A DNA stretch of 64,000 bases, from NCBI GenBank assembly GCA_029392475.1, contig CP113940.1, positions 372,001 through 436,000 on the forward strand, read 5' to 3'. A program made the position numbers and the translations under genes. This DNA comes from Streptococcaceae bacterium ESL0687 (GTDB lineage: Bacteria > Bacillota > Bacilli > Lactobacillales > Streptococcaceae). How positions within the stretch are numbered: position 1 is the first letter of the stretch; the number at the start of each line of letters is the position of its first letter. The notes under the pieces were generated by a model that was not told where the DNA came from, made no database searches, and worked only from the letters and a program-made list of their open reading frames with translations. Below are positions 20,996 to 60,583 of the stretch, piece by piece.

Positions 20996-21024
20996 TTGTG
21001 AACTTAAAATCTATATGATAAAAT
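20996..21024 (+). promoter_or_regulatory. Promoter of the Abi-like gene
   Basis: TTGTGA (20996-21001), 17 bases, TAAAAT (21019-21024) with an extended TGA. It covers the upstream in-frame ATG at 21023, which is why I start the gene at 21056. Confidence 0.65.
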
Positions 21025-21055
21025 GAGTCTTATCAATAGAAACTTGAGGAACTTA

Positions 21056-22033
21056 ATGAAAGAAAAAGGGAAGTCAACCAATTCTTTAATGAAACATATT
21101 AGAAATGACCACGGTATAAATATAGGGATAGGTCACTCTAGGGATAAAAGAGATCTCCTGAATATGGGCTATTTCCATTCGTACAAGGCTTATAGGTTTG
21201 TTAAAAAAATAAATAATCCTCTCGACATCCAGGAATTTAGTGAGATTAGGGACATTTATGATTTGGATAATGACCTTAAGGAGCTTTTGTATCCGGCAGT
21301 TATGAAAATTGAAACGGCCACTAAAAATTACACAATTGATTGTGTAGTTAGTGGTGGGCCGACAGATTTGCAGTCGATATATGAAACAAAAGCTAATCAT
21401 TACAGAGACTTCGAACCTGGGACTCCGGAACATAGAAGAGAGATAAAGAGTTTTTTGGAACTTAAAAAGAATATAGATGGTATTATTGCACGTAATTATA
21501 CTAAAAGTGACATAATACAACACTATGTTCATGAGAATCAGCCAGTTCCAGTATGGGCAGTTTTTGAATTAACTACATTAGGAGATCTTGGGTATTTTAT
21601 TGGTAGGTTGAACAATGACACCAGAGAAATATTAAGCAAAAATATTGGGATTTATGATAGACGTTATGACACTGCAAATAAAATTATTTCAAAACACCTT
21701 TATATAATTAAAGACTTGAGAAATGCTATAGCTCATAATAATCCAATTTTTGATTGCCGGTTTAAAACGGGGAAAGTTGATAAGGTAGTTATTAAACATC
21801 TAGAAGGGAATACAGGAGCTTCTAATATAAACTTTAATACGATAACGGATTATGTCTTACTGGTGGCTTACTATATGAGGTGTTTTCAATTTACTAGGAC
21901 AGAAATTAAGGCATTTTTAAGAGGATACGAAAGAATAATTAGTCAATACCAAGAAAAAGCTAATAACTCTAAAAATTATCGGATGATTTTTGATGTTGAT
22001 AGTACTTCTAAAATGCGTAAATTTAGGTTTTAA
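21056..22033 (+). CDS. Abi_2-family (AbiD/AbiF-like) abortive infection protein
   Basis: 325 residues from ATG 21056, which has GAGGA at 5-base spacing. The Abi_2 signature is visible: an N-terminal GYFHSYKAYRF segment and a C-terminal KDLRNAIAHNNPIFDC. The latter is an R-X4-H motif (Arg222, His227) of the HEPN RNase superfamily to which Abi_2 proteins belong. Lactococcal AbiD/AbiF proteins of this family stop phage growth by killing or arresting the infected cell. There is no terminator between this gene and the small RNA just downstream. Base composition is more AT-rich than gnd, suggesting acquisition. The subfamily assignment is by motif, so AbiD versus AbiF cannot be decided. Confidence 0.8.
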   Translation: MKEKGKSTNSLMKHIRNDHGINIGIGHSRDKRDLLNMGYFHSYKAYRFVKKINNPLDIQEFSEIRDIYDLDNDLKELLYPAVMKIETATKNYTIDCVVSGGPTDLQSIYETKANHYRDFEPGTPEHRREIKSFLELKKNIDGIIARNYTKSDIIQHYVHENQPVPVWAVFELTTLGDLGYFIGRLNNDTREILSKNIGIYDRRYDTANKIISKHLYIIKDLRNAIAHNNPIFDCRFKTGKVDKVVIKHLEGNTGASNINFNTITDYVLLVAYYMRCFQFTRTEIKAFLRGYERIISQYQEKANNSKNYRMIFDVDSTSKMRKFRF

Positions 22034-22387: not shown

Positions 22388-23359
22388 TTGAAGAAAAGAG
22401 TATTTATTTCTTACGCATGGGAAGAACAAACTGAGGCTGATAAAAAAGTAAAAGCATTTGTTGATGGACTGGCAATTTTTTTAAAAACTTTTGATTTGGA
22501 CGTGTTGCTTGATAGATATGAAAATCATCCGGGTTCTAATCTTGATAAATTCATGTCAGAAGGTATTGATTCCTCAAATTTTGTAATATGTGTATGTACA
22601 GAAACTTATATTAAAAAAATGAAAAATCAAAATTCAGGAGTTTATAACGAGATTACATTATTAAGTAAAATGTCAGATAGCCCTTTTATAATTCCAATTA
22701 TTGAAATAGGATATTTTATTGATTTACCAGAATTTTTTAAAGGTAAATTTGTTAGTCAATTATTTCTAAACGACTTTAGGTCTCCTGAAAATAAGTCTCC
22801 ACTATATGAATTAATAAATACCTTGATGGGTAAGAATCTATCTATTAAAGATGTGGTTCCTAAAATAAGAATCGAAAATTATTATGAATCGTCAAAAGAT
22901 TTGCAATTATACGGAGATGTAACAGAGTTAATGAGGTTTGAGAATGAGATGGAGAAGACTGTTTATTTTCAATATTCACTGGATGAAGGGAAAATTGATA
23001 TTGGAATTCCACCGATGAATTTTGCAACTGAATGGACTGAACGTGATGAAAGCAGTATCTATGTTTACAAAAATGTTCAAAAAATGTTTTATATTAATAA
23101 TTTTAAAAATTTTGAAGAAGTACACTCGCCTGGATATTTAAATGAAAATAGAGATGATTTAATGTCGATTAAGCGGGTTACTGATTTAGTGGTCGGAGAT
23201 GGTATTGTGTGGATAAATGACAGTAATCATGTTGCGATTGGTAAAATATTAGATATTAAATTTAGTAGAGAACGAGAAAATAGATCTAAAAATATAGTTA
23301 CATTTAAGTATAGAATTTTAAATCCAATTGACTTAACTGAAGATTTCAAGGAAGAATAA
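22388..23359 (+). CDS. TIR-domain protein with an unknown C-terminal half
   Basis: 323 residues from TTG 22388, with GGAGGAG at 22372-22378. The N-terminal ~130 residues are a bacterial TIR/SEFIR-type domain: RVFISYAW at 4-11, a DRYENHPGSNLDKFM loop, VICVCTETY at 66-74, and GVYNEITLL with Glu88 in the position expected of the NADase glutamate. The C-terminal half (about 165-323) has no motif I recognise and no membrane segment. Bacterial TIR proteins usually degrade NAD or make signalling nucleotides during phage infection. The gene is very AT-rich compared with its flanks. Fusion partner and trigger are unknown. Confidence 0.8.
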   Translation: MKKRVFISYAWEEQTEADKKVKAFVDGLAIFLKTFDLDVLLDRYENHPGSNLDKFMSEGIDSSNFVICVCTETYIKKMKNQNSGVYNEITLLSKMSDSPFIIPIIEIGYFIDLPEFFKGKFVSQLFLNDFRSPENKSPLYELINTLMGKNLSIKDVVPKIRIENYYESSKDLQLYGDVTELMRFENEMEKTVYFQYSLDEGKIDIGIPPMNFATEWTERDESSIYVYKNVQKMFYINNFKNFEEVHSPGYLNENRDDLMSIKRVTDLVVGDGIVWINDSNHVAIGKILDIKFSRERENRSKNIVTFKYRILNPIDLTEDFKEE

Positions 23360-24517: not shown

Positions 24518-24579
24518 GAGAATCTAAGTTTAGGTTCTCAAAATAGGGTTGATTTGGATTCAACCATAAAAATAGGAGA
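24518..24579 (+). promoter_or_regulatory. Structured pnuC leader, possible riboswitch
   Basis: Hairpin 1 pairs GAGAATCTA (24518-24526) with TAGGTTCTC (24531-24539). Hairpin 2 pairs GGTTGA (24547-24552) with TCAACC (24560-24565). The ribosome-binding site AGGAGA (24574-24579) follows 8 bases later. Two hairpins in a 70-base leader of a nicotinamide riboside transporter gene suggest a translational riboswitch. NAD+-II riboswitches are known upstream of pnuC in streptococci, but I could not match that consensus. Confidence 0.45.
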
Positions 24580-24586
24580 TTTTATT

Positions 24587-25447
24587 TTGAGTTATGTAGG
24601 AAAAAGCTGGACAAATTTTGTAAATCTTGTTCAGGAAAAGTTTAAGGCGCTAGGTGCCCAGGCACGTATTTTGCCAAAGAATCTAAAGATGATTTTTGAT
24701 AAAGCCCGCAAGCTTGGGTTTGTAGGTCTTATCAAGTTAGTCTTTGCGGACATCTTTTTAGGTCGCAGCCTGCTCGGTTGGCTTTATTTGATTGCCCTTT
24801 GTTCGGTTCAAATCATTGCCTACATCTTGCGTCCTGACTCACTTATGGGGATGATTGCAGGTCTTACAGGAATTATCTGCGTTATCTTTGTTAACGAGAA
24901 AAGAGCCAGTAACTACCTTTTCGGTTTTATCAATGCCTTAATTTACTTTGATATGAGCCTGCAGTCAAACTTTTATGGTGAGGTTCTAACAACAAGCTTC
25001 TTTACTATTATGCAGCCGATTGGGCTTTATATGTGGCTTGTGGCTGATCTTAAACCGCATGATGATTTTGAAGAGGCGCCCCTTGCTAACAAGTTGAGCC
25101 TTGCTGGTTGGTTGAAGAGTCTGGTTCTGATTTTCTTTGTTTGGCTTGGTATGGGTTACGCCAATAAGTCAATCGGAGCAAGTCGTCCTTTCAGGGATAG
25201 TGTGGCAGTAGGAAGCAATGTTACAGGTCAGGTCCTTATGAGCGGGGGATATGCTGAGCAGTGGATTTTCTGGGGTCTAACTAATATCTTTTCAATCTAT
25301 CTTTGGTGGGGTCAATCCTTTGAGATTGTCATCATGTTCTGGGTTTACCTACTAAATAGTATCGTTGGTTGGGTCAACTGGACCATGGACGTCAAACACC
25401 TTAAAGGACGCCCAGTAAACGAAGTTGTAAAAGGCCTTTTTTCATAG
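24587..25447 (+). CDS. pnuC: Nicotinamide riboside transporter PnuC
   Basis: 286-residue membrane protein with about seven or eight helices and the family C-terminal signature IYLWWGQS and NSIVGWVNW. It brings nicotinamide riboside into the cell for NAD synthesis. The start is TTG 24587, with AGGAGA at 7-base spacing. The longer frame from 24554 would begin inside the second leader hairpin. A long N-terminal helical extension (about 1-60) precedes the first membrane span. It is close to the coiled-coil gene downstream (26 bases). Confidence 0.85.
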   Translation: MSYVGKSWTNFVNLVQEKFKALGAQARILPKNLKMIFDKARKLGFVGLIKLVFADIFLGRSLLGWLYLIALCSVQIIAYILRPDSLMGMIAGLTGIICVIFVNEKRASNYLFGFINALIYFDMSLQSNFYGEVLTTSFFTIMQPIGLYMWLVADLKPHDDFEEAPLANKLSLAGWLKSLVLIFFVWLGMGYANKSIGASRPFRDSVAVGSNVTGQVLMSGGYAEQWIFWGLTNIFSIYLWWGQSFEIVIMFWVYLLNSIVGWVNWTMDVKHLKGRPVNEVVKGLFS

Positions 25448-25473: not shown

Positions 25474-26100
25474 ATGAAGAAAAAATGGAGTAGCTTAAGT
25501 AAGTGGAAAAGAATTAGTATCTTAGTTGCCCTTCTTTTTGCGACAGTTGTTATAGTTCCAAGTTGTAGTTCAAGTGAATCGACTGCGAGTAAACGGATTT
25601 TAGAATTAAAATCTGAGTTAAAGAAAGTATCGCAAGAAAAAGATGAGGCTGTAAAAAGTGCCCAGGCGGCAGAGAAAAGAGCTACTGAAGCTGAAAACAA
25701 GCTGAAAGAAGCTGAGGACGCCAAAAAGGCTGAAGAAGCTAAAAAAGTTGAAGAAGCCAAAAAGGCCGAAGAAGCCAAGAAGGCTGAAGAAGCCAAGAAG
25801 GCTGAAGAAGCCAAGAAGGCTGAAGAAGCCAAGAAGGCTGAAGAAGCCAAAAAGGCCGAAGAAGCCAAGAAGGCTGAAGAAGCTAAAAAGGCTGAAGAAG
25901 CAAGACAAGCTGAAGAAGCGAGGCAAGCTCAAGAAGCCGCTGCAGCTCAGGCAGCTCAAGTACAACCCCAAACTCAGTCTCAGACCCAGGTTCCAGCCTC
26001 GGCAGGAGGTTATACAAAGGATGCCAAAGGTAGATGGCATAGATCAAATGGACAATACGCTTCAAAAGCTGAAATCGCAGCAGCAGGCCTAGCCTGGTAA
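25474..26100 (+). CDS. Cell-envelope coiled-coil protein with KKAEEA repeats
   Basis: 208 residues. A basic N-terminus and one hydrophobic segment (about 13-30) end in VPSCSSS, a poor lipobox candidate or an anchor. A charged coiled coil (40-155) follows, including twelve tandem hexapeptides of AKKAEE type. Then a Gln-rich linker leads to a C-terminal GRWHRSNGQYASKAEI motif seen at the ends of other Firmicutes proteins. I infer an envelope-anchored stalk displaying or tethering the C-terminal motif. Function unknown. A terminator follows. Confidence 0.75.
   Translation: MKKKWSSLSKWKRISILVALLFATVVIVPSCSSSESTASKRILELKSELKKVSQEKDEAVKSAQAAEKRATEAENKLKEAEDAKKAEEAKKVEEAKKAEEAKKAEEAKKAEEAKKAEEAKKAEEAKKAEEAKKAEEAKKAEEARQAEEARQAQEAAAAQAAQVQPQTQSQTQVPASAGGYTKDAKGRWHRSNGQYASKAEIAAAGLAW
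25720..25935 (+). repeat. Twelve tandem 18-bp coding repeats
   Basis: Twelve in-frame 18-base units coding AKKAEE or close variants; the central ones are identical or nearly so (GCCAAGAAGGCTGAAGAA). Such near-identical units change copy number easily by slippage. Confidence 0.9.
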
Positions 26101-58275: not shown

Positions 58276-58282
58276 ATATAAG

Positions 58283-58324
58283 AAGAACACCGCTATTTAT
58301 ATTAAAAAGTAGTGGTGTTTTTCT
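58283..58324 (+). terminator. Terminator after the DUF59 gene
   Basis: AACACCGCTA (58286-58295) pairs with TAGTGGTGTT (58310-58319), then a T run. Confidence 0.85.
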
Positions 58325-58353
58325 TATTGTAATAATTATTATTGGAGGATTTT

Positions 58354-59178
58354 ATGTCATTTACTACCTACTATATGAATGAAAAGAAGGTTTATGAGCT
58401 AGCTTTATTAATTAATAATAAGCGTACTACCGAAGAGCGTACTACTGAAGATAAGAGCAATGGGGCCAAGGGAAGTGGAAATGCTGATATTCAATTCCAA
58501 GTACCATTCCTTGGGAATTTGGGCCCAAAAGTGAAAGGAGAGGGCGAAATAACACGCTCATCGGGACAACGAAGGGAGGAGTTATCTAAAATAATCTATT
58601 CTCAATCAATTCTTCTGCGCGAAGTAGTGAATAAATCCGTTGAAAAACGTAACTTGTCCGAAGCACATGAAGGAGATCTTGTAAAAATTAGAAATGTGGA
58701 AATAAGTCTTACTAACGCTAATGATATTACAGGAATCAATATTCTAACTGCAGGTGTGCTTAGTAACCTCAATGAAAGTATAGATATAAACAAAATCTTA
58801 GAGGTATTTTTAAAAGATAGTTCCTATGTTTTTGAGGGATCTTCCTCAACTGAAAAAATAATGTTCAATATTCCTCTCACACTTGAAGGAGAACTGGAAA
58901 ATAATCATCATATGTCTGAATTGGAATTGGGAAGATTCACTCTTGTAGGAATATATAAGGGAAAATATCAAAAGAAGCGTATTGAAGAGAAATTGAATAG
59001 AATTTCGTATTTGAATAGTCTAAATCAACAAAATTTTTCACAGGATAAGGCGGCTAACGTGCAAATAGAAAAAGAGAGCGATTGGAAAACCAATCAGCAT
59101 GAAATTTCCTCTGGGGAGGAAGAAGTACATTATCTAGATATAATTTCAGTAATTCAAGAGAGCAAATTTTTAAAATAG
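58354..59178 (+). CDS. DUF6414-like protein, partner of a Clp-type ATPase
   Basis: 274 residues from ATG 58354 (GGAGG upstream). It has no catalytic motif that I recognise. The N-terminus (TYYMNEKKVYELALLIN), then a Gly/Lys-rich linker with PFLGNLGPKVKGEGE, and IIYSQSILLREVV look like DUF6414-type proteins of unknown function. A central beta-rich part (GDLVKIRNVEI, EGELENN) and a Gln/Asn/Glu-rich C-terminus follow. Encoded 9 bases before the AAA+ gene and co-transcribed with it. AT-rich compared with rpoD. Confidence 0.6.
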   Translation: MSFTTYYMNEKKVYELALLINNKRTTEERTTEDKSNGAKGSGNADIQFQVPFLGNLGPKVKGEGEITRSSGQRREELSKIIYSQSILLREVVNKSVEKRNLSEAHEGDLVKIRNVEISLTNANDITGINILTAGVLSNLNESIDINKILEVFLKDSSYVFEGSSSTEKIMFNIPLTLEGELENNHHMSELELGRFTLVGIYKGKYQKKRIEEKLNRISYLNSLNQQNFSQDKAANVQIEKESDWKTNQHEISSGEEEVHYLDIISVIQESKFLK

Positions 59179-59187
59179 GGGACAATT

Positions 59188-60330
59188 TTGAAAAAGATAT
59201 TTGGATATAGTAAAATAAATCGCAAAAAAGCAATTTCGCAGTTAGAGGGAGATTTAGATAGGCCGATTGAATATTTAAAAATTGATAACTTGAGCCAAAA
59301 TGTCATAGAGACTCTCGATTTAGATTACATAGTTTATGACCTAAGTAGTTTAATAGTGGAGTCCAGCCAAAGCTGTGAAATAATTGAGACTTTTCTGCAA
59401 TTGCTCCAGAGTGATGAACAATATGTATTTGTGGTGGAGCGCTTAATTTTTGATAAATTGAAATATTCCTTAAAAGGGGAAGATATAGAGTTTGAAATCT
59501 TGGAAGAAAAACTTGGAATAAAAACATCTGGCAGAATTCTGGATCTCGGCGAGGCGCAGTTGGATGATTTGGAAAGTAAATTCAGTAAGTTATTGATAGG
59601 GCACCCATATTTTAAAAAACGATTATTTGAAGAACTTCGAAAGTTTAGATTATTCAATTTTATAGATGACCAGGATTTAGTTTCTTGTCTAATTTTAGGT
59701 GAAAGTGGGATAGGAAAAACTGAGGCAGGGCGAATTTTATCGAAAGAACTCAATCCGAATTCTGGGATAATAAAAATAAATTTGGGGAATTATAGTGGAC
59801 AAGAGTCTCTCTCTAGTTTAATTGGGAGTCCACGTGGTTATAAAGGAAGCGAAGAGGGAGAATTATCATCTAAAATTTTAAATAATAGTTCCTCTGTAAT
59901 TATTATTGATGAATTTGAAAAATCCAGTGGGGCGGTAAAAAATTTTTTCTTAGAACTCCTAGAAGACGGTAAATTCACGGATTCACTGGGAAGAGAATTC
60001 GATTTAAGCGGCTATATAATTATTTTTACCTCAAATTCCTCGGAAAATGAACTCTTAAAACATTTTTCTCCGGAGCTCCTTTCGAGATTTAACCTAATAT
60101 TTGAACTAACTCCTCTATCCTTAGAAGAAAAACAAAACTGGGGGATGAATTTTGAGAAGATTACTATTACTAAGATCATAGAAAAATATCCGGGTGCAAA
60201 ATTAAAGTACTCAGATTTATCTGTAATAGATGAAATAAATTGGTCCAGAGCTAATATTCGCAACTTGAAAAATGAAATAAAGAATAAAATAGCGGCTAAG
60301 TACTATGAAATAATAGATAAAGATAAATAG
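59188..60330 (+). CDS. Clp-type AAA+ ATPase of unknown function
   Basis: 380 residues from TTG 59188 with AGGGG upstream. An N-terminal ~150-residue region without recognisable domains precedes an AAA_2 domain like the C-terminal ATPase of ClpB/ClpA. It has GESGIGKT at 171-178, Walker B IIIDEFEK with Asp241-Glu242, sensor segment IIFTSNSS, and an arginine-finger candidate in LLSRF. No ClpP-binding loop or ClpB middle domain is seen, so it is a single-ring remodeller. It probably works with its operon partner. AT-rich and unlike flanking genes in codon use. Defence or stress roles are guesses. Confidence 0.75.
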   Translation: MKKIFGYSKINRKKAISQLEGDLDRPIEYLKIDNLSQNVIETLDLDYIVYDLSSLIVESSQSCEIIETFLQLLQSDEQYVFVVERLIFDKLKYSLKGEDIEFEILEEKLGIKTSGRILDLGEAQLDDLESKFSKLLIGHPYFKKRLFEELRKFRLFNFIDDQDLVSCLILGESGIGKTEAGRILSKELNPNSGIIKINLGNYSGQESLSSLIGSPRGYKGSEEGELSSKILNNSSSVIIIDEFEKSSGAVKNFFLELLEDGKFTDSLGREFDLSGYIIIFTSNSSENELLKHFSPELLSRFNLIFELTPLSLEEKQNWGMNFEKITITKIIEKYPGAKLKYSDLSVIDEINWSRANIRNLKNEIKNKIAAKYYEIIDKDK

Positions 60331-60583
60331 GAGGAGCTAATTTATTGTTTTTAGAATCCTATCTATAATATAACGGGAAGGTCTGCGTAAATTGCCCTTT
60401 GAGCATTATTTTTCCATCTCCTTTCAAAAACTCTTGAAATACTTCCTGAAAGCTTTTTCTGCAATAGTTTAGCCCTTCAAAATTACTCCAATCTGTAACC
60501 AAAAAGTAACTTACGAGGAAAATTTTTTTATGATAGACTGGCAAGGTTGTTTAAAGAATAAAAATTTTAAGGAGTTATTTTAT

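Follow-up and report, generated by a model that had tools for sequence, protein, structure and literature searches.

Organization of the locus

The window, by which we mean the whole stretch of 64,000 nucleotides that was analysed, belongs to a genome of 1.47 Mb held in a single contig. Two adjacent, co-directional genes, here called A and B, lie in it between an rpoD/DUF59 unit and the gene for a DUF2798 membrane protein, with the following features:

58279..58326, + strand: intrinsic terminator (hairpin) of the rpoD/DUF59 unit, directly 5' of the pair
58327..60491, no strand: inserted stretch missing from the sister genome G003, delimited by breaks in homology
58354..59178, + strand: gene A (PDC-M37A family), ATG start, stop codon ending at 59178, 274 aa
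59188..60330, + strand: gene B (PDC-M37B family), TTG start, stop codon ending at 60330, 380 aa

The two reading frames are separated by 9 nt. A ribosome-binding site (ggagga) stands directly 5' of the gene A start codon (58354), and the sequence aggggac sits 5' of the gene B start codon (59188). The upstream rpoD/DUF59 unit ends, as an earlier note on this sequence had claimed, at a terminator, which has a 20-bp stem, an 8-nt loop and a U-rich 3' side (-25.5 kcal/mol, z -9.8). The pair is also AT-rich, as the same note held, with a GC content of 0.342 for gene A and 0.323 for gene B against a mean of 0.391 across the 52 larger ORFs of the window, and in codon usage gene B is the most deviant of these 52. 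No Rfam RNA was found in the region, and promoter-like sites are no more frequent there than in shuffled sequence.

Comparison with the congeneric genome G003 (L132) reveals an empty site. Homology between the two ends at position 58278 and restarts at 60492, the left edge of the insert (58327) being approximate since the terminators of the two genomes differ in sequence. G003 keeps the order rpoD, DUF59, DUF2798 and LacY-type transporter without the pair, with 114 nt from DUF59 to the next ORF; in two further congeneric genomes (G001 and G002) the downstream gene is a different one. The insert measures about 2.2 kb, its content is genes A and B only, and neither integrase, transposase, recombinase or replicon ORFs within it nor long terminal repeats at its ends were found. 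The pair is thus a horizontally acquired cassette, inserted where the earlier note had placed it, between the rpoD/DUF59 unit and an unrelated membrane protein.

Assignment to the PDC-M37 family

Both products match PADLOC-DB profiles of the candidate system PDC-M37 over nearly their full length: gene A matches PDC-M37A (PDLC04604; E 1.2e-64, residues 3-271 on profile positions 5-287 of 289) and gene B matches PDC-M37B (PDLC04606; E 5.2e-103, residues 1-374 on profile positions 1-385 of 390). The PADLOC DolB profile gives a weaker match to gene B (E 5.1e-27), and the DolA profile gives none to gene A by itself. In Pfam, gene B carries AAA-type domains, the best being AAA_2 (E 3.5e-23), in agreement with the ClpB-like AAA_2 domain first ascribed to it; nothing reaches cut-off on gene A. 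As a direct genome probe the PDC-M37B profile matches every Clp ATPase and is uninformative by itself.

The pair therefore agrees with PDC-M37, a candidate of PADLOC-DB 2.0, in full-length matches, gene order and adjacency, shows no substantive difference from it, and is very probably a PDC-M37 cassette. It is a further instance of a catalogued candidate system and not a discovery. The suggestion that such a pair would be new does not hold, as it is already entered as PDC-M37 in PADLOC-DB and the same recipe has been published as Dodola (PMC11514479, PMC12322248). PMC11811056 attributes the PDC-x systems, as unpublished candidates, to Payne et al. 2021 and handled a locus named both Dodola and PDC-M37 as a duplicate; we found no published function or phage assay for PDC-M37 itself in the literature. 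What the window offers is a compact, 2.2-kb, laterally acquired example of the family with a clean empty site.

Pairing of the two genes

An M37A profile scan of 84,980 species genomes returned 66 loci, nearly all of them from Bacillota and Bacteroidota, with one fragment from Desulfovibrio. Addition of loci from genome searches and plasmids brought the total to 74 distinct loci (L035 and L052, both of 119,198 bases, are apparently one contig), of which three stop at a contig edge, leaving 71 that can be judged. An M37B-type ATPase lies immediately 3' of gene A in 67 of these 71, the two genes mostly overlapping or no more than 20 nt apart. In three to four loci A lacks an intact B (a remnant in L049, none in L068, L079 and L107), and in L058 the two are naturally fused in one frame of 675 codons. 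Pairwise distances among A and among B proteins correlate with r 0.93 over 41 loci, a value reached by none of 2000 permutations and one that includes a contribution from shared host ancestry. The survey for co-occurrence, in which the families might have turned up separately, found them paired in nearly all judgeable loci and, among sampled Bacillota, in the same genomes (below). The earlier view of a Clp-type remodeller dedicated to one obligate partner is upheld.

Several loci depart from the usual lengths. Four from genomes of the same family (L042, L043, L044 and L045) hold a divergent PDC-M37 type in which A is about 130 residues longer (about 404 aa), and B variants of about 490-520 aa, compared with about 390 aa in the others, occur in L055, L066, L072, L076, L078, L081, L085, L092 and more.

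Distribution and genomic context

The system is rare. M37A together with a high-scoring M37B occurs in the same 2 of 398 sampled Bacillota genomes, and in 5 of 196 genomes within the family. The pair occurs on plasmids of Priestia and Halobacillus as well, and no relative was matched in phage records or viral contigs. In L060 (2079-4241) the pair is preceded by a Tn7-like TnsB gene, which suggests that it is transposon cargo.

Carriage on plasmids and the TnsB neighbour, together with the commonness of OB-like folds (see below for gene A) among replication proteins, would suit a part in the stability, replication or transfer of plasmids and mobile elements in place of phage defence. Such a maintenance function appears improbable, given that most loci are chromosomal contigs, that the insert here has neither replicon nor recombinase beside its two genes, and that the families are missing from the phage and viral sequences searched.

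The proteins adjoining the pair bear on a defence role. Among 122 proteins flanking 25 M37 loci, an IIG enzyme and a methyltransferase neighbour L049, an IIG enzyme neighbours L050, a restriction enzyme neighbours L062 and PDC-S06 neighbours L069, whereas neither a methyltransferase nor a restriction enzyme was matched among 119 background proteins, drawn from 20 arbitrary stretches of Bacillota DNA. The search for defence genes near the pair, proposed at the outset, thus found restriction-modification or candidate defence genes at several loci; because the background set was not species-matched, these neighbours are moderate evidence in favour of a defence context. Matches to mads_3 near M37 loci were discarded, since the background set had them no less often.

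The same observations bear on whether the pair could be a stress or housekeeping module of protein quality control with a specialised adaptor, as the bona fide HSP100 character of its motor (next section) might suggest. The rare and patchy distribution, the absence from the same site in a congeneric genome, the carriage on plasmids, the restriction-modification genes beside several loci and the deviant composition all speak against such a module, which we hold to be quite improbable.

Gene B is a single-ring HSP100-type motor

The AlphaFold model of gene B (mean pLDDT 86.5) is composed of an α/β N-terminal domain of about 115 aa followed by an AAA+ ring of the HSP100 NBD2 type, which superimposes on NBD2 of ClpC and ClpB with Z of about 24 and 2.4-2.6 Å over about 255 residues. 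Walker A and B, sensor 1, the arginine finger and sensor 2 are all present, and the residues K177, D241, E242, N283, R300 and R358 are invariant in 60-61 of 61 homologues. The principal motifs map as follows:

59698..59727, + strand: Walker A, GESGIGKTEA (residues 171-180), Lys177 in 61 of 61 homologues
59830..59859, + strand: pore loop 1, PRGYKGSEEG (residues 215-224), G217 in 61 of 61 and an aromatic residue at 218 in 61 of 61
59896..59922, + strand: Walker B, VIIIDEFEK (residues 237-245), Asp241 and Glu242 in 61 of 61

At position 218 the aromatic residue is Tyr in 59 of these homologues and Phe in 2. It is well supported that gene B is a single-ring, NBD2-type HSP100 ATPase with intact motor residues.

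While gene B shares with the NBD2 of ClpB, ClpC and ClpE the fold, both Walker motifs, sensor 1, the arginine finger, sensor 2 and the GYxG pore loop, its 380 residues have no Clp N-domain, first ring (NBD1) or middle domain, and it possesses an N-terminal domain of its own. Residues 1-118 find no match in the Clp alignment, and the N-terminal domain bears a weak, collinear similarity to its counterpart in DolB. A degenerate NBD1 was considered for this domain and rejected, whole-length structural alignments with two-ring Clp proteins lying mostly at rmsd 11-15 Å and no Clp profile signal being present. The human protein Skd3 (CLPB) likewise has one NBD2-type ring, which gene B matches in sequence and structure, and works without ClpP; unlike Skd3, gene B is without an ankyrin domain and has a dedicated bacterial partner.

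In Clp ATPases the segment after sensor 1 bears the ClpP-binding loop. This segment, with its IGF/LGF-type loop, is absent from the aligned M37B proteins; the absence of ClpP-binding and middle-domain features noticed at first reading is confirmed. That B might unfold targets chosen by A for degradation by ClpP would be in keeping with an NBD2 core structurally closest to ClpC and ClpB; with the segment wholly missing, we consider this highly improbable.

In a maximum-likelihood tree of 100 NBD2 domains the M37B, DolB and Clp proteins form separate groups (support 100/98, 100/99 and 100/99), the tree being unrooted, with long joining branches, so that it does not tell which two groups are sisters. 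By score against the M37B profile, Clp proteins (131-158 bits) are nearer than DolB proteins (78-113 bits).

A possible OB-fold-like core in gene A

The AlphaFold model of gene A is only moderately confident (mean pLDDT 66.8; two plasmid-derived rows were left out of the alignment used for prediction). It comprises a β-α N-terminus, a disordered loop (residues 23-81) and a five-stranded core. The structural matches listed for this model are mostly OB folds (Ten1, the OB domain of AsnRS, RPA, PolD DP1 and MCM), with Z of 7.7 or less, below the caution line of Z 8, and a Foldseek E of 0.1 at best. The core is accordingly described as OB-fold-like, a weak match below the line of significance. No solved structure related to gene A by sequence was found, and the statement that the partner has no enzymatic motif stands in that we recognised neither a catalytic motif nor a toxin family match. 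Pfam matches of the A family to Selenium-binding (PF11524) and Tad5 were weak, fell below cut-offs and were set aside. A 15-nt tandem duplication within gene A (58421-58450) encodes RTTEERTTED in the predicted disordered loop.

Relation to Dodola

Dodola, composed of DolA (DUF6414) and the ClpB-like DolB, protects against phages in Bacillus and Streptococcus (PMC11514479, PMC12322248); its protection is strong, and how it works is given as unknown (PMC12322248). In a Streptococcus thermophilus study one Dodola protein gave weak structural matches to DNA- and RNA-binding proteins (PMC11514479). In the structural paragraph of that paper the names DolA and DolB are apparently swapped, its "DolA" matching a Clp ATPase.

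We asked how gene A relates to DolA by profile comparison. Pfam DUF6414 is matched by all nine DolA proteins used, and the plasmid relatives of DolA are annotated as DUF6414 by NCBI; in every record examined an AAA ATPase comes next. When a profile of the nine DolAs was run against 2136 ORFs from all loci, the nine DolAs were followed by M37A proteins without interruption (E from 2e-5 to 0.07, with the window protein at 0.005) until the first unrelated ORF. The PADLOC DolA profile is matched by 12 of 37 M37A proteins (best 1e-6), and profile-profile comparison aligns A and DolA collinearly along about 200 columns, at a probability that varied with the alignment used (83% vs 27%). A remote homology of gene A to DolA/DUF6414 is, on these sequence comparisons, probable but not proven. 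The label "DUF6414-like" given to the partner at first reading may therefore be kept in the sense of a very remote homology and not in that of a Pfam domain, none reaching cut-off.

The likeness between the two systems lies in two adjacent genes with the partner first, in the remote homology of A to DolA, and in the layout of DolB, an N-terminal domain of about 120 aa joined to an NBD2-type AAA+ ring as in gene B. They differ in that gene A reaches neither Pfam DUF6414 nor PADLOC DolA by itself, and in that gene B falls outside the DolB clade and retains pore loop 1. The G[Y/F] of this loop is present in 61 of 61 M37B homologues and is deleted in 7 of 7 DolB proteins examined. PDC-M37 would on this evidence be a distant cousin, at a remote level, of the proven Dodola system. 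The pore-loop difference, which we did not find described in the literature, is the interesting part, as it bears on whether these defences unfold proteins or use a switch free of threading. It is conceivable, if doubtful, that a single scheme of DUF6414-type adaptor and HSP100 motor has split mechanistically into PDC-M37, which threads and unfolds, and Dodola, whose ring acts as a non-threading switch or scaffold, the OB-fold adaptor recognising nucleic acid or nucleoprotein.

Integrated in S. thermophilus, Dodola caused a growth delay that was gone on knockout (PMC12322248), which raises the prospect that A is itself a harmful effector, such as an OB-fold nucleic-acid binder, which B folds, sequesters or releases in a phage-dependent manner, as in guard or toxin-antitoxin systems. 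The strict pairing, the short gaps or overlaps between the genes and the natural fusion would also be expected of such an arrangement. Against it, neither a catalytic motif nor a toxin family can be recognised in A, the intact threading pore loop is more in keeping with an unfoldase than with a simple holder, and A persists without B at L068 and L079, though possibly in decay; we judge it unlikely.

Proposed function

Defence is the most likely role of the pair because Dodola is active in Bacillus and Streptococcus (PMC11514479, PMC12322248), and we regard this role as likely. As for mechanism, the hexamer, the contact between A and B, the role of A and the phage target are all inferred from relatives. 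Gene A may serve as adaptor or sensor, its long disordered loop accompanying a core that resembles an OB fold. Gene B, like its HSP100 relatives, would form a hexamer with a single AAA+ ring, through whose central channel polypeptide is drawn by the Tyr218 pore loops. In an infected cell A would recognise a phage or replication-related complex and pass it to B, which would unfold or dismantle the delivered target at the expense of ATP and without ClpP. This adaptor-plus-unfoldase mechanism is tentative, somewhat short of evenly balanced, and the statement as a whole, that of a horizontally acquired PDC-M37 anti-phage candidate in which A selects the target and a ClpP-independent B unfolds it, has about an even chance of being correct. 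The earlier proposal of a remodeller acting with its adaptor or substrate, possibly in phage defence, survives as to the Clp-type motor, the obligate partner and the plausibility of defence, and fails as to novelty.

It weighs against defence that the pair is isolated in the window, about 35 kb from the closest other genes of defence type. A second low-GC patch is formed by 21023-22033 (+ strand) and 22388-23359 (+ strand), with GC contents of 0.32 and 0.28, and encodes an AbiD-type Abi_2 protein (PADLOC AbiD, E 1.8e-27) and a TIR/SEFIR protein (PADLOC bSEFIR, E 1e-31), both of known defence kinds. Elsewhere in the window, a putative lipoprotein or secreted protein of 208 aa with about ten KAEEA repeats (25474-26100, + strand) adjoins a PnuC-type NMN transporter (24554-25447).
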